Source: Methanobacteriota archaeon
GTDB taxonomy: Archaea > Thermoplasmatota > Poseidoniia > Poseidoniales > Poseidoniaceae
Length of the DNA stretch: 34,203 nucleotides
Assembly: GCA_009937205.1 (NCBI GenBank)
Contig: JAACCR010000136.1
Coordinates: 1-34,203 of the forward strand
Reading direction: 5' to 3'
The translations under genes were made by a program, and so were the position numbers. Below the pieces are notes generated by a model that was not told the origin of the DNA, did no database searches, and saw nothing but the letters and a program-made list of their open reading frames with translations. Below, piece after piece: positions 5,167 to 31,077 of this stretch (the first letter of the stretch is position 1; the number at the start of each line of letters is the position of its first letter).

Positions 5167-5270
5167 TTGTTTTCATCTGCAAATATTGTGAAATAATAGA
5201 TAATCTTGTGATTTCTTATTGATGATATTAGAAGCGTTTGGCTTATTGATGAGTGGTTGGTGGCTTGTCT

Positions 5271-6863
5271 ATGAGCGATGCATCAATCCTCTCTGATACC
5301 GACCGAACCACTGGTCGAGATGCTCTGCGTAAGAATATTCAAGCTGCACTTGCATTGTCAGGTGCTATTCGCTCAACACTCGGTCCACGAGGACTTGACA
5401 AATTGTTAATCGACGACACTGGACGAACCTTGACTACCAATGATGGAGTCACTGTTCTTGAAACTGCAAAGGTAGAACACCCTGTGGCAAAAATGCTAAT
5501 CAATGCTTCATCTGTACAAGATAAAATCGCAAGAGATGGAACTACAACTACCGTACTAATTAGTGCAGAAATGTTGAACAATGCTTGGCATCTTGTAACC
5601 CAAGGAGTTCACCCCTCAATGATTGCACGTGGTTATCGGATGGCTGAAGATTTCTGCCGAACAGAATTACCAACTTTCACTATCGCTGCTGCAAAAGATG
5701 ACCTATTAGTAGCAACTAAAACCGCACTAGCAGGAAAAAGTCATGAGGCAATGCGTATACATTTATCCCGCCTATCGGTTGAAGCTGCTGAAATTATTAT
5801 CGAGACACAATCAGGTGTAACCATTGCTGACCCAACAAGAGTCAAGGTGCTTTCACAAAGCGGAGGAGTTGTTACTGATTCCCAATTGGTTACTGGATTA
5901 GTATTAGCAAAAAAGCGAATCCTTGAAGCAATGCCTAAGAAAATTGGAGCAGGTAAAGTTCTTTTGATGAACGGTGGAATTGAGAGGCGCTCTATGGCAT
6001 CTGAAATGAAACTAAATGTGACATCTCCTGGTATTCTTCAATCCTTTAGAGATAAGGAAATAGATCTATTGTAGCAGCAAGTCAAACATTTACAATCTTT
6101 AGGGGTTACTTTATTAGCCTGCAAAGAAGGTATTGATGATGACATCCGTTCTACACTAAACGAAGCCGGTATTCAAGCGTTTAGAAGAGTTGCTAGAGAA
6201 GATTTGGATTTACTTGCCAGAGGTTGCGGGGCGACATTATTGTATGATGTAAAAGGTGCAACTGCTAGCGATTTAGGTGTATTTATTGAATCAAGAAATG
6301 AAATGTGGAATGGTGTAGCGCACTGGATTGTAAACACTGAAGAAGGCGGTGCGACTTTCATTGCTCGCGGTTCAACTACTGATGTATTAGGTGAAGTTGA
6401 GAGGTGCTTTGCTGATGCTCTTGGTGTTGCATGCCAATTATTAGAAGAACCTTTGTTATTGGCTGGTGGAGGTGCTACACAAGTTGCTTTAGCAAGAAAA
6501 CTAAGAAGGTATGCTGAAACAATTCCGGGTAGAGAACAATTGGCGATTGAAGCCTTTGCTGATGCATTGGAGATTATCCCCCGAGTACTCGCAGAAAATG
6601 CTGGATTAGATCCAATCAATACTTTACTGGAAGTTGTTGCCTCTCAAAGCAATGCAAATGAGGATGTCTCACATCATTTCGGATTGGATGTAAACACAAA
6701 AACACCTGCTAATATGATTGAAAACGGTGTCCTTGAACCTCTGAGGATTACACGGCAAGCGATTAGTGGTGCTACTGAAGCAGCCGTTTCGATTCTACGT
6801 ATAGATGATGTATTGTGGGCAAAGGCTGATGCAACGGTACCAGACTTGCCAGATATGGATTAA
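5271..6863 (+). CDS. ths: Thermosome subunit (group II chaperonin) with an in-frame TAG codon
   Basis: This encodes one subunit of the double-ring chaperonin that folds proteins in archaeal cytosol. The reading frame is colinear with the family from start to end (530 positions, near the usual 540-550) but contains one TAG at 6072-6074, codon 268. Before it lie the nucleotide-site motifs GPRG (38-41), NDG (57-59) and DGTTT (89-93). After it lie KEGIDDD, the GGGATQVALA segment and the equatorial EIIPRVLAENAGLDP. There is no shift of frame or missing residue at the TAG. Family members usually have a variable or charged residue there, in a helix of the apical domain. The start ATG 5271 was chosen over the GTG at 5253 because a typical MSDASIL-like N-terminus follows it and GGTGG lies 9 bases before it. 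Possible readings are a nonsense mutation, a sequencing error, amber readthrough or amber decoding. The terminal stop is TAA. Confidence 0.85.
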
Positions 6864-6925
6864 GTTGACTAAACTTAGACCATCTTGAAAACGATTGATA
6901 TTACGGCTACGCCGGTATCTTGTTC

Positions 6926-6933
6926 AAATAATA
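6926..6933 (+). promoter_or_regulatory. TATA-like element of HMG-CoA synthase
   Basis: AAATAATA lies about 25 bases before the ATG at 6953. No Shine-Dalgarno lies between, so a leaderless or nearly leaderless transcript is possible. This is based on spacing and composition only. Confidence 0.3.
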
Positions 6934-6952
6934 GATTGAATTAGATGTATCC

Positions 6953-8524
6953 ATGAGTAAAGAATCTCAAATACCTGTGGGCGTTGATGATATCGCAATT
7001 CACTTCCCACGATTATTCATGGATATGAGAGATTTTGCTGATATGCGCGGTGCTAATTTTGCTAAACTTAACAAGGGACTTGGACTAACTGCGATGTCTA
7101 TTCCTGACGTTCATGAAGATACTGCGACGATGGGGGCAATGGCAGTAATGCAGATAATTGACCGAAATGGTTTGAACCCTAATGATATTGGAAGAATGTA
7201 TCTCGGTACCGAATCTGCATTGGATGGAGCAAAACCAACTGCGACATATATTGTTGATATGTTAACCCAGCGCTATCAAGAACGATACGGTGGTGATTGT
7301 TTCGTCAATTGCGATGTAGTGGATATGACCTTTGCCTGTATCGGTGCTGTTGATGCTCTGCATACTACACTGGATTGGGTTGCTCGCTCAACCGAGGAAG
7401 ATGAACGAATCGGAATAGTAATTTTCTCTGATAATGCAAAATATGCACTTGAATCATCTGGTGAATATACCCAAGGCGCAGGTGGTGGTGCACTGTTGAT
7501 TAAACAAAATCCTAGGTTACTTGAAATTCCTGATTGTTTTGGTGTTTCAACAACTCCAGTCCACGACTTCTTCAAACCAAGGCGTAATGTTTCTATTCAT
7601 TCAGTGATTACAAATGTAATGCAATTAGCACAGGAAACCGGTCAAACCGTCAAGAAAGGCCTTGTCGGAAGGATGATCAAACATCTTCCAGAATCTACTG
7701 TAAGGAAATTAGGAATTTTCGCACATGGTGAAAACTCAGTTAATGTTCATCGGGATGAACCTATTTTTGATGGTCAATTTTCCAATAGATGCTTCCAAAC
7801 TGCGGTTCGTCAAGCATTCAAGAATTTTGTAAAAAAGGCAAAATCCAATGGCCGCTATGACTGCGAAGTTGATGAAAGGTTTACCGAGCAGTGGTCGAGA
7901 ATTATCATGCATCTTCCATATGCCTTCCAGGCAAAAAGAATGTTCCCCGATATATTTCGTCATGACCGCTTAGGAACTCCAGAATGGGAATTGATTGTGA
8001 AGAAAATAGGGGAGCCCCCAATTGAAACAAAATCAAAAGACGCTAAAGTCATTGAAGCATGGGAGAAGGAAATGGATGATTACCGCCGTGCGATTTCAAA
8101 GACTGAAGAATACATTGAATTTCATGCATCACGGATTGAGAAGGGGCAACGCGCTTCCAGTTTAATTGGAAATCAATATACTGGCTCTATCTTCCTCGCA
8201 TTGATGTCTACATTTGAATCAGACTTAGAAGCAAATTGTAATTTAGATGGAGATTATTTCGGACTTTGTGGATATGGTTCAGGTGCGAAAGCAAAGGTGT
8301 TCGAAGCAAAGGTCAATCCACGATGGAGAGAAGTTGTTTCTCGTTGGCATTTATTTGAAAGACTTGGAGGCAGGGTGGCGATAGACCAAATCACCTACGA
8401 AAGTCTTCACAAAGGTACTCAAGACAAGTCGGTAATCTCACCTAATGGAGAATTCGCTTTGGTGGAAATTGGAGAAGAGGGTGTCATGGAAGGATCCAGG
8501 CACTATGAATGGATTTCAGCTTGA
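6953..8524 (+). CDS. mvaS: Hydroxymethylglutaryl-CoA synthase
   Basis: It condenses acetoacetyl-CoA with acetyl-CoA to HMG-CoA, the committed carbon source of the mevalonate pathway and so of archaeal ether-lipid chains. The catalytic triad is visible: Glu87 in GTESALDGAKP, Cys129 in DMTFACIGAVDAL and His320 in IIMHLPYAFQAKRM. At 523 aa it is much longer than the roughly 350-aa enzyme of most archaea. Landmarks such as HDFFKP (204-209), FDGQFSNRCF near 272 and the His320 region resemble the eukaryotic and bacterial long form. The usual NACYGG around the nucleophile is altered to FACIGA. The start ATG follows a TATA-like box at leaderless distance. Its last 9 bases overlap the convergent threonine dehydrogenase. 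The family call is firm; descent from a bacterial or eukaryote-like source is inference. Confidence 0.88.
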   Translation: MSKESQIPVGVDDIAIHFPRLFMDMRDFADMRGANFAKLNKGLGLTAMSIPDVHEDTATMGAMAVMQIIDRNGLNPNDIGRMYLGTESALDGAKPTATYIVDMLTQRYQERYGGDCFVNCDVVDMTFACIGAVDALHTTLDWVARSTEEDERIGIVIFSDNAKYALESSGEYTQGAGGGALLIKQNPRLLEIPDCFGVSTTPVHDFFKPRRNVSIHSVITNVMQLAQETGQTVKKGLVGRMIKHLPESTVRKLGIFAHGENSVNVHRDEPIFDGQFSNRCFQTAVRQAFKNFVKKAKSNGRYDCEVDERFTEQWSRIIMHLPYAFQAKRMFPDIFRHDRLGTPEWELIVKKIGEPPIETKSKDAKVIEAWEKEMDDYRRAISKTEEYIEFHASRIEKGQRASSLIGNQYTGSIFLALMSTFESDLEANCNLDGDYFGLCGYGSGAKAKVFEAKVNPRWREVVSRWHLFERLGGRVAIDQITYESLHKGTQDKSVISPNGEFALVEIGEEGVMEGSRHYEWISA

Positions 8525-9577
8525 AGGAAATTGTAGAACTACTTTACCACAATTTCCAGATGTTGCTAATTCCATCCCTTGTTCAAATTCAGAGATTGGG
8601 AAGTAGTGGGTGATTATTGTTTCAATATCTATTTGACCTGAACTAAGTAATTCGTGCATCGTATCCCAGGTCGACCACATTTTGCGGCCATTGATTCCTT
8701 TCAAATGTAAATATCGGAATACTAATTCATTCATTGGAATCTCTGGAGTTGGGTTGCCGTATACTGATAAAACATTGACATAACCACCCATTCTAGTAGA
8801 TTTTACTGTATTTGACAATGCGACTGGTGAACCTGAAAACTCGCATGAGTTGTCAACTCCTCTTCCATCTGTTGCAGCTAATATCTCAGCAACGATGTCA
8901 TTGTCTTTTCCAAGAACCATGTCAGCACCTAACTTTTCTGCCAAACCCATACGATATTGGTTATCCCAATCAATAGCAATTACTTTCTTCGCACCCATTG
9001 CTTTGGCTGCATTTACTGCGAATAACCCAATCGGCCCCAAGCCGTGAATTGCCACGGTTGCGCCTTTGATAGGCCCTCCAGTCAAAGTGTGAATCGCATT
9101 GCCCAATGGATCTTGTATCGATGCGTGATTTGGATTCAGTCCTTCAGGAATCGTTCTTGCATTGACACTTGGGGCTGCGAAATATGGACCAAACGCTCCA
9201 TTGACTTCAACGCCAAATATTGTACCACTTTCACATATGTGAGCATTTCCTTCATCGCAACGAGGGCAATTCCAGCATGCAAAATGGCATTCTATTGCCA
9301 CATTTTGTCCGATTCTAGAGTCGGAAACAGCACTACCCACTGCGACAATTTTACCACATGTTTCATGTCCAGTAATAGTTCCGAGTGGAACATTTTCTCG
9401 ACTCCATTGATCCCATTTCCAAATGTGTATATCGGTTCCACAGATTGAAGTCGCCAATGTCTGGACGATCACTTCGTCTTCCTTCGGAGTGGGAACTGGA
9501 TGCTGAGTAAGAGAAAAACCTCCTCTTGCATCAGCGGTTTTTGTCCACGCCATCATCGTTGTTGGAATGGTTATCAT
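8516..9577 (-). CDS. tdh: L-threonine 3-dehydrogenase (zinc alcohol dehydrogenase family)
   Basis: It oxidises L-threonine with NAD+ to 2-amino-3-oxobutyrate, the first step of threonine breakdown to glycine and acetyl-CoA. The 353-aa chain carries the catalytic zinc ligands Cys46 (SICGTD) and His71-Glu72 (GHE). It has structural zinc cysteines at 101, 104, 107 and 115, and a Rossmann segment GLGPIGLFAVNAAKAMGA. Threonine-dehydrogenase features, rather than those of a general alcohol dehydrogenase, are the IHIWKWDQWS segment after the catalytic Cys, DPLGNAIHT, and a C-terminal stretch of KGINGRKM followed by ITHYFPISEFEQG. The N-terminus has about 8 extra residues (MITIPTTM) before MMAWTK, so the start could be at either internal Met. 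No kbl (2-amino-3-oxobutyrate CoA ligase) is adjacent. The gene is convergent with mvaS and divergent from pyrG. Confidence 0.9.
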   Translation of the reverse strand: MITIPTTMMAWTKTADARGGFSLTQHPVPTPKEDEVIVQTLATSICGTDIHIWKWDQWSRENVPLGTITGHETCGKIVAVGSAVSDSRIGQNVAIECHFACWNCPRCDEGNAHICESGTIFGVEVNGAFGPYFAAPSVNARTIPEGLNPNHASIQDPLGNAIHTLTGGPIKGATVAIHGLGPIGLFAVNAAKAMGAKKVIAIDWDNQYRMGLAEKLGADMVLGKDNDIVAEILAATDGRGVDNSCEFSGSPVALSNTVKSTRMGGYVNVLSVYGNPTPEIPMNELVFRYLHLKGINGRKMWSTWDTMHELLSSGQIDIETIITHYFPISEFEQGMELATSGNCGKVVLQFPSS

Positions 9578-9671
9578 CGCGCTCCCCTAAATCTTCTTTA
9601 GAGACGCCACCTTTTGGTTATTGGCTTGCTCTATGTCAACTTTGATGATGTGCTATGTGAAAATAATTAAC

Positions 9672-22784: not shown

Positions 22785-22941
22785 GGGGGATCGGTTTCGA
22801 TCAGAGAGAATAGATTTTATTGGCCTGGTCGCTCCCTGTTTTACGCGGAAAATACTGCATCATATCTGTTCCGCGATTGAATTTCGCTTATTTTGCAGTT
22901 GGAAATTTAATTTGGGTCTGTAAATCCCCCTTTAGGGGGAT
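22785..22941 (+). ncRNA. Candidate structured RNA element or regulatory leader
   Basis: GGGGGAT at 22785-22791 can pair with ATCCCCC at 22924-22930 to close a domain of about 145 bases. Inside it, CGCGGAA (22844-22850) pairs perfectly with TTCCGCG (22869-22875) over an 18-base loop. Competing local helices exist: GATCG/CGATC (22789-22793 with 22798-22802), and the same ATCCCCC with GGGGGAT at 22935-22941 over a TTTA loop. One strand segment with two equal partners is the layout of a switch, or of an RNA followed by a terminator-like stem. No known RNA family was recognised, and pairing was judged by eye without energy calculation. Confidence 0.4.
22924..22941. repeat. Perfect GC-rich hairpin before the roadblock gene
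   Basis: ATCCCCC (22924-22930), loop TTTA, GGGGGAT (22935-22941). The hairpin is 53 bases before the ATG at 22995 and is not followed by a T-tract on either strand, so an intrinsic terminator is unlikely. Confidence 0.6.
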
Positions 22942-22994: not shown

Positions 22995-23336
22995 ATGCTA
23001 CAACGAGTTCTTGCCGGTTTACTTCGAATTGAAGGGGTTGATCAGGCTATGTTAATTGATGATAATGGCCGCTTGTTGGCCAGTGTTGGAAATGAAGGTA
23101 TATTGCCACCTTTGGACAAGGCGATTAAGATTACAACTGCTGCATTGGAGTGCGCATACGCTACTGAAATTGGCGATGTGTTTGAAATTTGGTGCGAGGG
23201 GAATGAGAGAATGATGATAGACATCGCATCTCCGAACCGCATAGTAGTGCTAAGTGGAGAGGGTGGCCGTCTTGCTAGATGGCGCCATGCTTTGGACCGA
23301 GACCGTCGCATCATCGCGACAACACAAATGAGTTGA
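22995..23336 (+). CDS. Roadblock/LC7-domain protein
   Basis: A 113-aa protein that is nearly all one roadblock/LC7 fold. It has an N-terminal helix (LQRVLAGLLRIEGV), a strand-turn with QAMLIDDNGRLLAS, a middle helix (LDKAIKITTAALECAYA), two central strands (VFEIWCEGNERMMIDI, RIVVLSGEG) and a closing basic helix. In bacteria and eukaryotes such proteins dimerise and regulate small Ras-like GTPases such as MglA. No GTPase gene is in the window. The start has no Shine-Dalgarno and no TATA at leaderless distance, which fits a longer structured leader. The next gene begins 5 bases after this stop on the same strand, so the two are almost certainly one operon and probably work together. Confidence 0.75.
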   Translation: MLQRVLAGLLRIEGVDQAMLIDDNGRLLASVGNEGILPPLDKAIKITTAALECAYATEIGDVFEIWCEGNERMMIDIASPNRIVVLSGEGGRLARWRHALDRDRRIIATTQMS

Positions 23337-23341
23337 TACCT

Positions 23342-26300
23342 ATGTTTGACCTACCAATTGGAAAGCCTATCAAAGAAAAAATATCTGTTGAAGCAGGTTC
23401 TATACAGCCATTTGATCATGGAATTATTACCACATGGCTGGGAAGAAGGAAAACTCCTTCCGGCCATCGTTTAATTCGTGCTGGAAGAGTTGTTGCATGG
23501 ATTTGTGAAAACGAAACTGGAAAGTACCTACTCGCTGGTAGTGAGGCAAAAAATAGACTGGAGGAAATAGAAAGCTCTGGCGCTAGATTAGAAGCAAGCC
23601 AATATTCCATGGCAGGATTGGGTTGCGTCGCAGAAATAATTCCTGAATCATTTGAATTCAATGCAGATCGCCAGGGATTGATTCCTCGCGGAAATGCTGT
23701 TGAACGACTACTATCACGTGACCTTTCATCCGTTCTGCGTATAATTTGCGAAAATGTCACGGTTCGAGGCGCTATTGCAGTTGATGCTGGTATGTTGATA
23801 GATAGTGTTGGCGAATTACCTGGGGAAGCAGAGGATCTTGCAGCTCAAGTTGGAACTGCAATAGATGCTAGGAGTTCATTATCCAATAATCTAGGCTTAA
23901 CCAATCAAGGACACTGGACTCTTCACACCGCCGATGGCGCTCTATTACTTGCCCAAACTGGTGAAATTGCAATAGCTGTTTGGACTGAGTCAAATTCTGA
24001 CCATTCAAGGATAATTACTGCTGCTTCTGCTGCTCTTGATGGAGAGATAGGAAGCACTGGCGCTTTGGGTGCTGAATTACCAGACGGTTTCGTAATGCGT
24101 GAAGGAAAGGGAGGCCCGGGTGCGATTATTTCAATGCTTGAAGCGGCGATAAGTGAACAAGTGACTGGTCATATCAAATCGGGGATTACCGAAAATACTG
24201 CTGTGTCCCTTGTACTAAGCAAGGGCATACCTGTGACAATTTCTGCACCAAATAATGTTTCTTTTGAAGAAGCAATATTGAATTTAACTGATTCCAAGAG
24301 AATCCTCAAACTTCACCGACTACCAACAGGAACAATCGTATCAAAGGAAAGTGGAAATCTTAGTGACTTTACTCTCGCAGACTTTAGAGATTTACTCGCT
24401 ACAATCCGAACCCGTTCGGAATCAAGAAAAGAGACTTTGACACAAAAAATCAATCTGTTAATGGGATTCGAAATAGGTGTAGAAGCATTGCGGAAGGCGA
24501 GAGCACATGCAAAGTTCAAGACGACTCTTGATCACACTTCACAAGGCCTCCCTGAGGTTGAAGCAGAACCCGCTCCAGCTGTAGATGCTGGACTGAGAAG
24601 AAGATTAGAGGCCGCTGAACTTGAAATTGATAATTTAACTAAGGGTAATGCTTCACTAAATGCTAAATTAAATGACGCTCAAACTGCAAAAACTGCTGCT
24701 CAAAGTCTTGCTCGCCATGCTACCGAAAGTAGTGGTGAGCAAACATCTGCTTTGGAATCTGCAAACTCTTCTCTAAATTCTATGCAAGTAGATTTGGCTC
24801 AGGCCGTATCCAAGAGTGAGGATGCAGAATCAAGAGCGCTTCGTTTGGTAAAAAGAGTAAATGAATTAGAGCATCAAGTTAGTGAAAGAGCAAGTCAGTT
24901 AGCTAAAGCACTAGGAGATTCAAAATCTAGCGAGGCTCTTAGAGATGCAATTCAAGATATGGCTCTAAAAGAGGCGGAATTAAATTCTTCATTGGATGAA
25001 GGTAGTGAAAGGTTGTCCACAATCCGTCAGCAATCTGATGATGATGAAAGGCGCCTTAGAGTATTGCAAGAGCAAGTTGAGACTACGCGTGAACGTCATG
25101 CAAGGGCTCAGGCTGAATTGATGCAACTAGAAGAGAGGATTCATGTTGCAAATACAAGCCTTGATGAAATTGATTCTGAAACGAAGGCCAGTAGACGCAG
25201 AGCTGAAGAAAATAGAAACCGTCTCGCTCAAGATGAGGCAAGACATAGTCAAGTGCAAGCAGAATTACGAGAATTGATGGATGAACGACGCCAAGTATTG
25301 CGAGAACTAGGTGATATCGGAGGTCGCAAAGGCCAGAGTGAAGCGGAATTATTGTCATTAATAGATAAGGCTGAAGATTTGAGTCAAGCACACGAAGAAG
25401 CATTACTGGACATCCAGGAAGCGGAAAGAATTCGTGCTAGACTCGCTGACGAACCACTGGCTCAAGCATTATTGGATGATGCTTCAACCTTTGAAGGTCT
25501 AGGACCTGTACTTTCACGACTTGAAACTGCACGTGGACTCGGATATTCTGTTACATTACTGGATAGGGCGGTAGAACGTGCACTACAAGTAATTCAGTCA
25601 ACAGTTGACCATGTAGCAACTACTCCTAGACATTTACTTTCAAATGAAGTAATGTCATTGCTTGAAAGACAAGTTCCACAAACCGCTGGAGCAGTAAGGG
25701 GATTAGCACGTTGGTCAGTACAGCAGAGATTAGAACATCAATTAGGAGATACAGTTGGCCATCTAATTGTTGATTTAGAAAATTTACTAGAAGATTTCGA
25801 CCGTTCTATTACAATGCTGCGACGTCTACGTAATGTCCTTGAACAATTAGCAAAACTTGGCGCACCTGTGGATGAAATCGAAGCATTGTTAGCAAATTGT
25901 AATCGTCCTGAAGCATTACCAAGTATTGCAAAGGCAACTCATAAATTGATTCGTGTCGCATTAGATGATATTTACTTGGAGGCTGATCAAAGAGACGCTG
26001 GTGAATCAATAGCATTAGAAGAAACTGCAAGAGTTCTTGAGGAGTTAATCACTCAACTTGATGCCAGTGGTTTAGCCGATGGCACACCTAATGGCATTAT
26101 GTGGGAATTCCAAAGAGATGGATTATTACCTTATGAGAGAAATACTATGCCTGCTGCACAGCGTCTTGATGTCAATGATGAAATGATTTCTCATATGGAG
26201 CCATCATTAGCAGGAGAGGTTCCAGTCTCATTGGATAAAGCAGTAAGTGATGATGCTTCTGAGGCTTCGGAAGAAGATGATGAAGATGGATGGCAACAAA

Positions 26301-26533
26301 TGCCTACTCCAAGCGATTCAACTGAAAGTACTGCTGCAACATATATCGCTTCCCCTGAAGCACCCGCACTTCCTCAACCTGGAACTATCAATGAAGATGA
26401 TGAAAGAGCCTTGCTAGATGAAGAATTAGCACGCCTAGATGCTGCATGGGATCACAGAAATGAACCAAAAGATTTGGCAGTGGACCCTGCATTATCTGCA
26501 TTAGAGGCAAAACTTAGCGGATTAGATATGTGA
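23342..26533 (+). CDS. 1063-aa protein: roadblock-like N-terminus, long coiled coil, acidic tail
   Basis: A large protein of unrecognised family. Residues 1-125 form a mixed alpha/beta head. Residues about 146-230 resemble a second roadblock domain (GAIAVDAGMLIDSVGE, then HWTLHTADGALLLAQTGEIAIAVW). Residues about 258-335 form another small alpha/beta unit (GAIISMLEAAISEQVTG ... RILKLHRLPTG). A long coiled coil spans about 419-705, rich in Glu, Arg, Ala, Gln and Ser heptads. A helical domain follows (about 715-935), then a Glu/Asp/Ser/Pro tail. There is no Walker A motif, so it is not an SMC or Rad50 ATPase despite the coil. There is no signal peptide or membrane helix. ATG 23342, 5 bases after the roadblock stop, is preferred to a start at 23279 that would overlap that gene. 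Its scaffold or polarity role is inferred. Confidence 0.8.
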   Translation: MFDLPIGKPIKEKISVEAGSIQPFDHGIITTWLGRRKTPSGHRLIRAGRVVAWICENETGKYLLAGSEAKNRLEEIESSGARLEASQYSMAGLGCVAEIIPESFEFNADRQGLIPRGNAVERLLSRDLSSVLRIICENVTVRGAIAVDAGMLIDSVGELPGEAEDLAAQVGTAIDARSSLSNNLGLTNQGHWTLHTADGALLLAQTGEIAIAVWTESNSDHSRIITAASAALDGEIGSTGALGAELPDGFVMREGKGGPGAIISMLEAAISEQVTGHIKSGITENTAVSLVLSKGIPVTISAPNNVSFEEAILNLTDSKRILKLHRLPTGTIVSKESGNLSDFTLADFRDLLATIRTRSESRKETLTQKINLLMGFEIGVEALRKARAHAKFKTTLDHTSQGLPEVEAEPAPAVDAGLRRRLEAAELEIDNLTKGNASLNAKLNDAQTAKTAAQSLARHATESSGEQTSALESANSSLNSMQVDLAQAVSKSEDAESRALRLVKRVNELEHQVSERASQLAKALGDSKSSEALRDAIQDMALKEAELNSSLDEGSERLSTIRQQSDDDERRLRVLQEQVETTRERHARAQAELMQLEERIHVANTSLDEIDSETKASRRRAEENRNRLAQDEARHSQVQAELRELMDERRQVLRELGDIGGRKGQSEAELLSLIDKAEDLSQAHEEALLDIQEAERIRARLADEPLAQALLDDASTFEGLGPVLSRLETARGLGYSVTLLDRAVERALQVIQSTVDHVATTPRHLLSNEVMSLLERQVPQTAGAVRGLARWSVQQRLEHQLGDTVGHLIVDLENLLEDFDRSITMLRRLRNVLEQLAKLGAPVDEIEALLANCNRPEALPSIAKATHKLIRVALDDIYLEADQRDAGESIALEETARVLEELITQLDASGLADGTPNGIMWEFQRDGLLPYERNTMPAAQRLDVNDEMISHMEPSLAGEVPVSLDKAVSDDASEASEEDDEDGWQQMPTPSDSTESTAATYIASPEAPALPQPGTINEDDERALLDEELARLDAAWDHRNEPKDLAVDPALSALEAKLSGLDM

Positions 26534-26553
26534 ACATGGCTTTGGTCGCAATT

Positions 26554-26560
26554 GAGGAGG
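26554..26560 (+). promoter_or_regulatory. Strong Shine-Dalgarno deciding a TTG start
   Basis: GAGGAGG lies 7 bases before TTG 26568. It is the best ribosome site in the local sequence. The nearest in-frame ATG is 51 bases further on, inside the protein's first charged segment. Confidence 0.65.
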
Positions 26561-26567
26561 AATTGTA

Positions 26568-26816
26568 TTGAACGAAACACTTGTTGGTCGGCAAGAAAAG
26601 CAAGGTAGATACTTTCCAATGTGGTTGGAAAGGCTATTACTTATTTCAGCTATTCTTACAATGTATCTATTCCATTCGGATGTTGCTGATTTTTTCCAAA
26701 CGCAAGGTAATCCTGATTGGTTGATTTTTATCATTGAATGGTGCTTATTACCAATTTCATTACTAGTGCTATCTGAATTGATTGGCAGGGTAATGCAAGC
26801 AGTTCACAGTGATTGA
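26568..26816 (+). CDS. Small two-helix membrane protein
   Basis: An 82-aa protein that starts at TTG, supported by a perfect GAGGAGG 7 bases upstream. A charged N-terminus (NETLVGRQEKQGRYFP) precedes a hydrophobic helix at about 22-40 (LLLISAILTMYLF), a short polar loop and a second helix at about 52-70 (FIIEWCLLPISLLVLSEL). The C-terminus is polar. I recognise no family. It is 34 bases after the coiled-coil gene on the same strand, so it is probably the third gene of the roadblock operon and a candidate membrane anchor for that complex (inference from position). Its stop is 2 bases from the end of the convergent eight-helix protein. Confidence 0.7.
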   Translation: MNETLVGRQEKQGRYFPMWLERLLLISAILTMYLFHSDVADFFQTQGNPDWLIFIIEWCLLPISLLVLSELIGRVMQAVHSD

Positions 26817-26818
26817 GA

Positions 26819-28045
26819 TTAAGCATCAATTTTTATTAAATCTTTACCGCTCTCTTGTGCTATTTCGTTACTTGGTAAGCGCGATTGAATTAGACCCCAG
26901 ACTCTCTGCCAAGGGATGAAGAAACGCATCACTGCCATCAATGATAGGAACATCAATGCTGATATTACCAGGCCATAGGTTAGGGACAATTCTATCGATT
27001 CACTAACTTGGCCTGCCCATTGAGAACCTGTGGTCTTGCTAACGATTTCCAATAGTACACTATGGAATCCTAATGCAACCATCGTTGCAATCGCTGTCAA
27101 TCCTAAGAATCCAATGGTATGTCGTAGATGACCGTTTAGCATATTATCCATCTGGCGAACATATTCTGGGTCTCTTTTACAAGACTCTGGTAGGCGGTAA
27201 GCATACTCAAGATAACGAATTACTCCGTAAGATGATTCTTGGAAGACCATGATTAGAATTGCAATAGCAATCAAATTGAATTGCTCTTGAGTAACTAATT
27301 TGAAACCGAGTAGACCAATTGTTGGAGAGCCCACCTGACTTTCGAGTGTTATGAATTGGGCTCCGTATGAACCGAGTTGTCCTTTGATAAGCGGGAAAGT
27401 CAAAATCGCATGTATTCCTAAGAATATCAAAGTGAATCCTATTGCCCAAGCAACTGAGCGACGACTTAATCCCCAGATTCCTCTAGTACCCATGATAACC
27501 GGTAGAAGATAAATGAAGAGAATAATTAGTGACATTATCATCAGTAATGGCCATTGCAGAGTTTGTAGTTCTGAATCATTTGGTAAGCGCAAATCAAAAG
27601 AAAACAACATTCCAGTTAACCAAGAAAGGATTAGGCGTCCCACCAACATTACAATCAAGGTAATAATAAATCCAAGTTTGATTCTCTGCTGCATTTGAGG
27701 CGTTTGGAATGCTAAGAAGGCCATTCCGCCTCCAATAGACATTCCCAGTATGAGAGGGACAAAGAAGCGACTTAATCCATCTCTACCTTCTCCTGTTAAC
27801 CAATCCCCTAATGGTAGTTGGTCGCCAATTATTAATTCAATTGAATCAAATAGCATTGTGTGATCAATAGAGCCAACAACATATGTTGAAACAACTTCAA
27901 GATACATCGCTATCAAAGCAACTGTTGCTAATATTTGCAAAGTTAGAATTTGCCATTGCTTTCTCAGCAATTTCAAGTGAAGGGTGCGGGCACCAAGGCC
28001 ATCTGTCATTGTGACATCTGACTGAACATCAACTTCACTTGCCAT
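26819..28045 (-). CDS. Eight-helix membrane protein of the DUF58 operon
   Basis: A 408-aa integral membrane protein with about eight hydrophobic helices (near 34-52, 94-113, 124-143, 165-185, 197-217, 257-275, 312-335 and 352-375). A polar N-terminus of about 25 residues contains a possible cytoplasmic basic patch (KLLRKQWQ). A loop of about 35 residues after the sixth helix (LEYAYRLPESCKRDPEYVRQ) holds its only cysteine. The family is not recognised. It starts one base after the stop of the DUF58 gene (28047) and so ends a three-gene operon. It may form the membrane part of a complex with the DUF58 and DUF4350-like proteins, which is inferred from spacing alone. Confidence 0.8.
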   Translation of the reverse strand: MASEVDVQSDVTMTDGLGARTLHLKLLRKQWQILTLQILATVALIAMYLEVVSTYVVGSIDHTMLFDSIELIIGDQLPLGDWLTGEGRDGLSRFFVPLILGMSIGGGMAFLAFQTPQMQQRIKLGFIITLIVMLVGRLILSWLTGMLFSFDLRLPNDSELQTLQWPLLMIMSLIILFIYLLPVIMGTRGIWGLSRRSVAWAIGFTLIFLGIHAILTFPLIKGQLGSYGAQFITLESQVGSPTIGLLGFKLVTQEQFNLIAIAILIMVFQESSYGVIRYLEYAYRLPESCKRDPEYVRQMDNMLNGHLRHTIGFLGLTAIATMVALGFHSVLLEIVSKTTGSQWAGQVSESIELSLTYGLVISALMFLSLMAVMRFFIPWQRVWGLIQSRLPSNEIAQESGKDLIKIDA

Positions 28046-28046
28046 T

Positions 28047-29300
28047 TCAGTACCCCCTAACCTGCATTAATGCCTGTGACAAATCCATGTCTGGCATCCA
28101 ATCAATAACCTGTGCACCAGAACCTGCTAGTGTCGTCAAACGGTTCTGCCTTTCTAATTTTAGAACTTCGTATGACATTCTTGGAATTCTTGAAACCAAT
28201 CTTTCAAAGTCGATACTAGATGGACTTAGAACAGTTACTTCGTGCCCTCGTCCAACTAAATCACGTACTGCTGCAGGAACTGTTCCATCTCCTTCACAAC
28301 TTGAAATTATGAATACAGGAGATCCTCTGCTGAATCTTCCACTAAGAGAATTAGTAACTGCTTGTAAAGGCATATTTCCTTTTGGAGTTACACCCGCAAG
28401 CGCACTTAAAATCTTGAAATATTGCTTGTCTCCTGTGTCTGGAGGTAAGTAGGATAGTTCATCTCCATATATTCCCAAAGCGACAGAATCTCTGCGATGT
28501 AAGAAGAATGATGCTAGACTGGCAGATGAGACACAGCTCATTTCTAGTGGATTTTTCAGAACAGTTCCAATTCGTGCAACATCTCTACTATCGAGTAATA
28601 TGTACAAGTCGGTTACTGCATCTCTACACTTTTCATTAACCATTAATTCACCAGTGCGTGCGTATGCCTTCCAATTGATATTCTTGAATGGGTCTCCAGG
28701 AACATACTCACGCAAAGAAAAGAATTCAGAACCTTGACCTGGGATTCTTAGTGTTGTTGCACCAGTATACATCTTAGGTGTGCGAGAACGAAGGAAGGCT
28801 TCCTCAATATCTTTTATTTGAGGGAAGATAACTATGTCAGAATGATGGTCAACATACATTTCTTCAACACCTAGATTGAATGTGTTCTTGGCCCTAAGTG
28901 AGACTGGACCGATAGAATAATGCCCACGTAGTGGACATCTTAGAACATAACGAATACGCGCACTTTCACCTGGGCGTAGGTTCAAACGCATCTGATTTAA
29001 ACCACTACGCAATTTCATTTCATGAGGAATATTATCGTATACTTCTAGCAACTGAGTCTTACGGTTACTACGGTTAGTGATTAGAAGTTCAACGTAGAGA
29101 TCGTCACCTTTGTACAAATTGTCGGCACTCAATTTTCTTTGAACTTCAACATCACCATGTCCAGAAATCCATGAATTAACTACAATGAATGCTACAAAGG
29201 CAAATCCTAAAATCATCATTTGATGATTTGATATCATCATACCAATAAGAATGAGGGCAATTCCTCCAGTAAATGTGAATGCTGCTTTACGAGTCCACAT
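28047..29300 (-). CDS. DUF58 family protein (membrane-anchored, vWA-like)
   Basis: A 417-aa protein with two close N-terminal hydrophobic helices (about 8-22 and 28-44). A beta domain follows (about 50-160) that ends in the RCPLRGHYSIGPVSL pattern common to DUF58 proteins. The family's signature spans residues 197-212 and reads REYVPGDPFKNINWKA. A von Willebrand A-like domain follows (LYILLDSRDVARIG, then VTVLSPSSIDF). DUF58 proteins normally sit beside a MoxR AAA ATPase and are thought to act in envelope or metal-dependent assembly. No MoxR gene is present here. The ATG directly abuts the stop of the upstream DUF4350-like gene, with no bases between, so the two are translationally linked. 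Confidence 0.88.
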   Translation of the reverse strand: MWTRKAAFTFTGGIALILIGMMISNHQMMILGFAFVAFIVVNSWISGHGDVEVQRKLSADNLYKGDDLYVELLITNRSNRKTQLLEVYDNIPHEMKLRSGLNQMRLNLRPGESARIRYVLRCPLRGHYSIGPVSLRAKNTFNLGVEEMYVDHHSDIVIFPQIKDIEEAFLRSRTPKMYTGATTLRIPGQGSEFFSLREYVPGDPFKNINWKAYARTGELMVNEKCRDAVTDLYILLDSRDVARIGTVLKNPLEMSCVSSASLASFFLHRRDSVALGIYGDELSYLPPDTGDKQYFKILSALAGVTPKGNMPLQAVTNSLSGRFSRGSPVFIISSCEGDGTVPAAVRDLVGRGHEVTVLSPSSIDFERLVSRIPRMSYEVLKLERQNRLTTLAGSGAQVIDWMPDMDLSQALMQVRGY

Positions 29301-30920
29301 TCAAATCACCTCTGTTCTACCCCAAGCCTTGATTCTTTTAACCAAAGCAACGGTTTGTTCTAATGAATATTTACTATTCGAATCAATTGCAAACTTAGCA
29401 AGTACAGGGTCATTGATTAGCCCAACTAATTCTCTTGCGGGCAAAGCATGAAATTCCTCCCTCGTCAGTCCATTTTGATTACGTATTTTGGACAAGAAAA
29501 CTTGGTGTATCTTTTCCACTTTAGAATAATAAACATAGCGATTAGCATCTCCAAAGCCGTAGTAAATAATACTGAATACGTGCCTCCATGGCTCAGGGTC
29601 GCGCTTTTTGATAAGTACTGCTTCAAATGCAACAAACAATAGCAGGAATAGAATTAGCATAGCTAATCCTTCTCCTGTAAAGTATACAAGTAAGAAATAA
29701 ACGGTGTTATACGAATCTGCGAGAAGGGCATTTTGAGGATGTCTTGATTCATCAAAGATTACCATAGCATTGTCCGAGGCCTGGCCCTCTTCACCAATTT
29801 TTGTACTCATTAGAGACTCTGCAATTACATCCAATGCCCACTTACGGTTGTCATTATCTGGAATTAAATTACTCACATCCCCATACTCGCCATCATTGAA
29901 CCCCTGATAGTCATACATTGCATTCATCAGGGCTGAACCGTCAGCGACAAAGATGATTTCTCCACCATCATTTGGATCACAAGTCGAACGAGCACATGCT
30001 TCTATGCTGAGATTGAATTGGCCCCATAAGTCAGGTGTTTCGGTTGTAATTTCACTGCCAACCCAAATTTCTCCATCTCCGTTTACATCAACCGTTGCCT
30101 CATTACTTGTAACAGCACGAATAGCAACTTCTGGAAGTGCACCTTGAATACCAGGCATTATTTCCAATCCAGTGATATTGTTTAGAAGTAATTTGTAAGA
30201 TGGGTCGAAATTTACAACACCATTATCCCAGTGCTGACCACAAAGTCCGGCATCCTCTAAGGTCATTGAATCTCCATCCAGTAATTTACAAGGATGTGCT
30301 CCTTCTCCGTTTTCATCACCCCACCTTTCGTGTTGTGTAACGGTGTCAAGATCTATTTCAGTACCATTCATTCCACACGGATTTGCCTGTACACACATCC
30401 AAATATAATTGAAATCAAGTTCGGTTGCATAAGTTGTATCAAATAACTGATAACCATTGTAGCGCACTCCGAATGCTTCAGCTATAGTTCCCGCAAATCC
30501 AAAGTCTTCAAGAATTAATGCCGTTCCTCCTGCTTCAACAAACTCTACTATTGCTATCACTTCAGAAGGTGAATAACCATCATCTGTTGAGATTGTGATA
30601 AAGCCATCATCATCAAATTGAGGTAGTGAGAGAGTATCTCTTTCTACACCTGCAACGACGAATGTGGTATTTCTTGGATCTTCAATATCCGCCAGTAACA
30701 ATGGAGATGAGACCAATGAACGTGTATCAATTCCCATTTCATTCAAATCTTCCCTAAAGGCCGACATATCATTCCAATCATCATCGTAGGCAGATAATTG
30801 ATTTGTATTTGAGATGTTAACAAAATTTAGCAATATAGTCATCAATAACATAGAAAGTACAAACCAAAAAGCGACTTGTAATCCGAGTCTTCGATAATTC
30901 AATTTGCTAAGTTCCACCAT
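29301..30920 (-). CDS. DUF4350-like membrane protein
   Basis: A 539-aa protein with one N-terminal helix (about 12-34), a large acidic domain of about 370 residues that probably faces outside, and one C-terminal helix (about 407-437). A basic cytoplasmic domain of about 100 residues follows. The part near residues 85-165 has the DUF4350 pattern: a strand, then SPSEVIAIVEFVEAGGTALI and EDFG. The external domain carries several cysteine pairs (CVQANPC, CARSTC) and Asp-rich, calcium-site-like stretches (DVNGDGEIW, DPNDGGE). The start was moved to ATG 30920 because AGGTGA precedes it by a few bases; the frame is open to an ATG at 30965. It is the first gene of the operon with DUF58 and the eight-helix protein. 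A TATA-like TTTTATAA lies near 31030 on this strand. Confidence 0.82.
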   Translation of the reverse strand: MVELSKLNYRRLGLQVAFWFVLSMLLMTILLNFVNISNTNQLSAYDDDWNDMSAFREDLNEMGIDTRSLVSSPLLLADIEDPRNTTFVVAGVERDTLSLPQFDDDGFITISTDDGYSPSEVIAIVEFVEAGGTALILEDFGFAGTIAEAFGVRYNGYQLFDTTYATELDFNYIWMCVQANPCGMNGTEIDLDTVTQHERWGDENGEGAHPCKLLDGDSMTLEDAGLCGQHWDNGVVNFDPSYKLLLNNITGLEIMPGIQGALPEVAIRAVTSNEATVDVNGDGEIWVGSEITTETPDLWGQFNLSIEACARSTCDPNDGGEIIFVADGSALMNAMYDYQGFNDGEYGDVSNLIPDNDNRKWALDVIAESLMSTKIGEEGQASDNAMVIFDESRHPQNALLADSYNTVYFLLVYFTGEGLAMLILFLLLFVAFEAVLIKKRDPEPWRHVFSIIYYGFGDANRYVYYSKVEKIHQVFLSKIRNQNGLTREEFHALPARELVGLINDPVLAKFAIDSNSKYSLEQTVALVKRIKAWGRTEVI

Positions 30921-31077
30921 AATATCACCTACTAGAGCATAATTCCGACAAAGCCATGCAAGCATATTGGTTTAGAAGGTTGCCCACACTTGAGAAAATA
31001 ATGCTCAACTGCACCAGTCCCTCAGAACGTTATAAAAGTGCTAAAAAACATATTTAAACGGTACTTTTAGAGGTTAT

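Follow-up and report, generated by a model that had tools for sequence, protein, structure and literature searches.

Introduction

From bacteria to humans, what is understood of roadblock proteins mainly concerns their control of Ras-like GTPases. The conservons of Streptomyces pair the roadblock protein CvnB with the GTPase CvnD and a kinase-like protein. In Myxococcus, AglZ and FrzS carry an N-terminal receiver-type domain ahead of a long coiled coil, and AglZ acts together with MglA. Here, we describe a locus from a stretch of 34,203 bases (the whole of which is termed the window; G+C 41%) on contig C84 of a 1.77-Mb genome from the family Ca. Poseidoniaceae (marine group IIa, Poseidoniales). 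It holds a gene for a stand-alone roadblock protein, ROBL, directly followed by a gene for a large coiled-coil protein, BIG, into which a second predicted roadblock domain is built. The pair is conserved in an order that appears to be devoid of Ras-type GTPases. The archaea concerned are uncultured (PMC6336850), and the literature searched contained no description of such a roadblock module in Poseidoniales.

Adjacent genes for two predicted roadblock folds

Three adjoining genes lie on the same strand in the order ROBL, BIG, TM82, exactly where an earlier note, made from the sequence alone, had placed a stand-alone roadblock protein, a 1063-residue coiled-coil protein and a membrane protein:

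22995-23336, plus strand: ROBL, stand-alone roadblock/LC7 protein of 113 amino acids (Pfam Robl_LC7, structure model, profile matches in the PDB, substitution rates)
23342-26533, plus strand: BIG, multi-domain coiled-coil protein of 1063 amino acids without a match to any Pfam family (conserved beside ROBL, substitution rates)
26568-26816, plus strand: TM82, small membrane protein of 82 amino acids, a neighbour (retained where ROBL and BIG are missing, absent from locus L032)

The length of BIG is counted from the ATG at 23342, the mechanical open reading frame (ORF) beginning at 23279. Strong purifying selection acts on ROBL and BIG, the ratio of nonsynonymous to synonymous substitution rates (dN/dS) being 0.05-0.10 and 0.07-0.12, respectively, when the window is compared with four relatives (BIG identity 87-91%). 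Wherever both starts could be placed, the two genes are separated by -4 to +9 nucleotides, as translational coupling would predict. A perfect short inverted repeat, CCCCCTTTAGGGGG, is present at 22926-22939, about 55 bases upstream of ROBL; the region upstream of ROBL, this repeat included, yielded no significant Rfam match to an RNA element.

ROBL just reaches the Pfam cut-off for Robl_LC7 (23.0 bits against a cut-off of 23, E 6.5e-5), and six of its 16 relatives match the family at E <= 1 (best 8.4e-08). Its predicted topology in an AlphaFold2 (AF2) model is α-ββ-α-βββ-α (predicted local distance difference test score, pLDDT, about 90), and a profile of the ROBL family retrieves Asgard roadblocks and MglC from the PDB. 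The same order of secondary structure elements is predicted for BIG residues ~129-233 (pLDDT ~80-90 over most of the domain). A profile of residues 120-237 finds mainly roadblocks in the PDB, with CvnB5 as the best match (E 0.0013) along with Asgard roadblocks and LAMTOR4/5. This domain stays under the Pfam roadblock cut-off (best E 0.0078); aligned to ROBL with hhalign, as a single comparison, it gives an E value of 6.5e-4. On the strength of these models and profiles both proteins are predicted to contain roadblock folds, and for residues 146-230 of BIG, which had been singled out beforehand, the roadblock assignment was borne out by AF2 topology and PDB profile matches. The model query was an artificial construct, in which ROBL was fused to BIG 1-370 of a relative (L049) and the in-frame stop that separates the two genes was read as Gly; it gave good individual domains at a mean pLDDT of 82.

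Distribution and loss of ROBL and BIG

Among 116 genomes of the family, ROBL was detected in 104 and the N-terminus of BIG in 108, and both are present in all 21 high-quality Poseidoniaceae genomes and in all 11 genera. In the sister family BIG occurs in genera g15, g17, g19 and g22, members with larger genomes, and is missing from g12, g13, g14, g16, g18, g20 and g21. The adjacency of ROBL and BIG is kept in all 11 Poseidoniaceae genera and in the four sister-family genera. With these N-terminal and C-terminal profiles BIG was detected only in Poseidoniales: across 293 genomes of the phylum the N-terminal profile had a single further match, to one region (termed D3 below), and the C-terminal profile had none across 313 genomes. 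Genome G152 carries the ROBL-BIG-TM82 block twice (L096, L097) with closely similar BIG sequences, probably a duplicated assembly and not two copies.

In a tree of DUF58 and mem408, two genes from the neighbourhood, the genera without BIG group together in a single clade (bootstrap 100) beside the BIG-containing genus g19 (82). The simplest history is a single loss of ROBL and BIG in a small-genome clade of the sister family. In the genomes concerned, ttuA and mem408 stand opposite each other, and a TM82-like gene is all that separates them. The loss thus took exactly ROBL and BIG and spared TM82, which marks the two genes as the functional unit and TM82 as their neighbour. It had been proposed that all three genes form one module. 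The adjacency of ROBL and BIG, and in almost every locus read also the three-gene order, was indeed found to be conserved, but TM82 persists beside ttuA and mem408 without the other two and is absent from the BIG-containing locus L032, so that it is probably not an obligate part. Basal clades of marine group IIb (MGIIb) share larger genomes and oligosaccharide degradation with marine group IIa (PMC6336850), a pattern similar to that of BIG occurrence, although this amounts to no more than a correlation.

Small GTPases in Poseidoniales

A GTPase encoded elsewhere in the genome had been suggested as the partner recruited by the roadblock proteins. The Pfam family PF08477 (Roc, small GTPase) matched none of 58 Poseidoniales genomes and PF00025 (Arf) none of 49. 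Neither family was detected in the genome from which the window stems, and the window itself encodes no GTPase. In a sister order of the same class, in contrast, PF08477 gave strong matches (E ~1e-30) to ORFs of ~180 amino acids, and PF00025 showed the same contrast; control genomes were also positive. These clear positives demonstrate that the assay works. Many genomes of the sister order contain one Ras-like small GTPase of ~180 amino acids (L107-L114, family f3). Judged by these profile searches, Poseidoniales appear to lack GTPases of the Ras, Arf and MglA types, and the proposed recruitment found no support in any Poseidoniales genome searched.

Domain architecture of BIG

BIG is composed of the following parts, of which two further small N-terminal domains and the most conserved portion had escaped the earlier note:

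23393-23695, plus strand: D1, residues ~18-118, small alpha/beta domain without assigned family (AF2 secondary structure)
23726-24040, plus strand: D2, residues ~129-233, predicted roadblock domain (AF2 topology, PDB profile matches, hhalign)
24074-24376, plus strand: D3, residues ~245-345, shared with DUF835 and DnaA-like proteins of Thermoplasmatota (profile matches)
24578-25453, plus strand: proline-free coiled coil, residues 413-704 (no proline, partial 3.5-residue periodicity)
25259-26176, plus strand: C-terminal all-helical domain, residues 640-945, most conserved part (column identity, AF2)
26402-26530, plus strand: conserved C-terminal tail motif behind an acidic variable linker (alignment)

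By sequence, D1 and D3 have no relatives in the PDB and match no longin; their assignment to PATAN/DUF4388, considered on the basis of motifs, found no Pfam support and is not claimed. Residues 413-704 are free of proline, and parts of this segment carry the 3.5-residue hydrophobic period of heptad repeats. Family models place an SMC/Rad50-type coiled coil at residues 423-751, the similarity being confined to the coiled coil. An identity with anti-phage defence proteins (JetC/LmuB-like) was discarded, as it was suggested only by weak, coiled-coil-driven matches (E ~1e-3), and no defence or phage family matched beyond this segment.

The most conserved part of BIG, above the roadblock region, is formed by residues 640-945, with a mean column identity of 70% across the two families and more than 60 invariant columns. 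Such conservation is like that of a binding surface or a functional core. The AF2 model of this segment is all-helical (pLDDT 83; predicted template modelling score, pTM, 0.62), and no convincing PDB relative was found by profile or by fold (best fold E 1.5). Weak PDB matches to FliS and spectrin-type proteins were taken as chance. The domain may represent a new fold.

D3 in DUF835 and DnaA-like proteins

The weak D3-region match in the phylum-wide search led to two proteins of 717 and 714 amino acids. The former combines D3 with a zinc ribbon, a DnaA-type AAA+ domain and DUF835, the latter D3 with DUF835. In a published list of domains from archaeal signalling proteins, DUF835 appears as KaiC-like and inactivated (PMC5847659). 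A joint alignment of D3 sequences contains five invariant columns (G-G-G-G-P), and the joint profile reveals a second D3 protein in most BIG-containing genomes and in scattered other Thermoplasmatota; sister-family genomes that lack BIG gave no match to it. In Poseidoniales this second protein combines D3 with DUF835; behind its gene comes one for a DnaA-like AAA+ protein and, in the majority of loci, a further one for a CxxCxxCC protein (L147:5312-10091, the first two genes being at 5312-7447 and 7447-9627; L153:6090-11057). Elsewhere in Thermoplasmatota, D3, the DnaA-type AAA+ domain and DUF835 reside in single polypeptides (L089:2382-4535, minus strand; L159:4965-6941, plus strand). In the genome from which the window originates, the D3-DUF835 gene appears broken (G000:C68, L146:5488-7623; ORFs of 447 and 237 amino acids), and a close relative (G097) has one ORF of 712 amino acids. 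Taken together, the sequence comparisons suggest that D3 ties BIG to an ATPase-based hub. Being based on a single domain in common and a single joint loss, this is a lead and not proof.

Neighbouring genes

TM82 has a TTG start and two hydrophobic segments, one of which is weak in the window copy. The three-gene block is flanked by a divergently oriented ttuA-like gene and by a convergent mem408-DUF58-DUF4350 operon (26819-30965, minus strand), followed by cdc48. In the loci read the operon keeps its place with or without ROBL and BIG. It was rejected as a partner of the pair, since mem408 is found in 125 of the 126 Poseidoniales genomes searched, whether BIG is present or not, and thus has no specific link to it. 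At some distance, a thermosome subunit gene (5253-6863, plus strand) is split by one in-frame TAG at 6072-6074; both halves match thermosome models in register, and an assembly error, a strain variant and a pseudogene are candidate explanations.

Discussion

While the gene pair and its distribution are well supported, our confidence in its mechanism is moderate to low. A scaffold role remains the best reading. We tentatively propose, at somewhat less than even chances, that ROBL and BIG constitute a GTPase-independent two-gene scaffold with a platform, a coiled-coil spacer and a target-holding end. The two proteins would be made as a translationally coupled pair and would not use a Ras-type GTPase. 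BIG would probably dimerise via its coiled coil of ~290 residues, which would act as a spacer of ~40 nm. At one end D1, the roadblock domain D2 and D3 would form a binding platform, with ROBL as the likely partner of D2, and at the other a conserved target would be held by the invariant helical domain (640-945) together with the tail motif at the C-terminus. D3 would probably connect BIG to the pair of DUF835 protein and DnaA-like AAA+ ATPase in which this domain recurs; the state of the scaffold would then be set by an ATPase/KaiC-like hub and not by a GTPase. The gene pair, its domain boundaries and distribution, the predicted roadblock folds, the lack of a detectable GTPase and the sharing of D3 are results of the analysis; dimerisation of BIG, its contact with ROBL, the DUF835/DnaA-like link and the identity of the target are elements that we infer. 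In its fullest form the proposal reads that roadblock biology has been retained but rewired in an order without detectable Ras-type GTPases: a KaiC-like (DUF835) protein paired with a DnaA-like ATPase would drive ROBL and a giant roadblock/coiled-coil scaffold, while the target would be held by a previously unseen helical fold; this wider version is doubtful. Of the scaffold that had been envisaged in the earlier note, the two roadblock units on a coiled coil stand, whereas TM82 as an obligate member probably does not.

Several points weigh against the scaffold proposal. D3 sequences of other proteins are weakly similar to that of BIG (E 1e-22 to 5e-3), and it is sequences included in the profile that gave the stronger values. 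The common absence of BIG and D3-DUF835 comes from a single loss within one clade of small genomes. The pTM of 0.35 for the fusion of ROBL with BIG 1-370 means that no fixed arrangement of the two is predicted, which speaks neither for nor against their contact and thus the heterodimer suggested in the earlier note. Furthermore, a very divergent GTPase would escape PF08477 and PF00025.

Four other explanations deserve consideration. An unlikely one is a chromosome or division scaffold, that is an SMC- or golgin-like tether that would work with the DnaA-like AAA+ protein, either on DNA or where the cell divides. The long coiled coil of BIG resembles the arms of SMC and Rad50, and D3 is common to BIG and DnaA-like proteins. 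However, BIG has no ATPase head and resembles SMC proteins nowhere but in the coiled coil, DNA binding by the DnaA-like protein is putative, and one clade has lost ROBL and BIG with no replacement.

Likewise, it is quite improbable that the pair organises a pole or the membrane for the archaellum or type IV pili in the service of particle adhesion. Archaeal type IV pilus loci often encode roadblock proteins (arCOG02603; PMC4858521), and all Poseidoniaceae genera, which carry BIG, also have archaellum genes (PMC6461757); with both present throughout, co-occurrence within the family carries no information. Sister-family genera show either trait without the other: BIG occurs without archaellin in g17 and g22, and archaellin without BIG in g14 and g21. 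No locus read places ROBL and BIG beside archaellum genes. An accessory of the archaellum is rejected on account of this double dissociation as the sole role of the pair, and the motility function that had been suggested is unsupported.

A relationship or analogy to the eukaryotic tri-longin platforms is very unlikely. Chains of Mon1-Ccz1, Inturned-Fuzzy and BLOC-3 are the top fold matches of the model covering ROBL and the N-terminus of BIG (E ~1e-7 over ~430 columns), but template modelling scores of ~0.15 and root-mean-square deviations of ~21 Å were obtained with a query that is an artificial fusion containing two roadblocks; moreover, neither D1 nor D3 matches a longin by sequence and no Rab-type GTPase was found. 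These matches reveal no more than a succession of several small alpha/beta domains of this class. A classical polarity module, in which ROBL and BIG would act as GTPase-activating protein, guanine nucleotide exchange factor or effector platform for a Ras/MglA-like GTPase encoded elsewhere, is just as improbable: MglB and related roadblocks do regulate MglA (PMC4316618), and the fold search with the N-terminal model also finds MglB, Asgard roadblocks and Ragulator subunits, but the search with the two Pfam families described above was negative in all Poseidoniales genomes searched and positive in the sister order and controls.

The roadblock fold itself is known; what is new is a proposed roadblock scaffold pair in genomes without a detectable Ras-type GTPase. 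If the scaffold proposal is true, roadblocks can provide platforms for dimerisation by themselves or in the service of a different class of NTPase, and some of the most abundant planktonic archaea would possess a candidate for a large internal scaffold.

Comparison with known systems

ROBL and D2 of BIG are predicted to share the roadblock fold with MglB and MglC of Myxococcus and Thermus and with Asgard roadblocks, and ROBL is, like these, a small stand-alone protein. Their systems differ in that a cognate GTPase (MglA, Rab/Rag) adjoins or accompanies the roadblock, while none was detected in Poseidoniales, and in that the second roadblock forms part of a giant coiled-coil protein, BIG. CvnB of the Streptomyces conservons provides the closest PDB sequence match of D2 (CvnB5), but neither a CvnD-type GTPase nor a kinase-like gene is found at the ROBL-BIG locus. 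With SMC and Rad50, BIG has the long coiled coil in common and not the ABC ATPase head or the hinge. D3 connects it to the archaeal DUF835 and DnaA-like AAA+ proteins of Thermoplasmatota, although this is the one domain in common and BIG has neither DUF835 nor AAA+. In its general layout, with regulation placed at the N-terminus and a long coiled coil behind it, BIG is similar to AglZ and FrzS of Myxococcus, from which it is set apart by a roadblock and two other domains at the N-terminus and by a conserved helical domain at the C-terminus.

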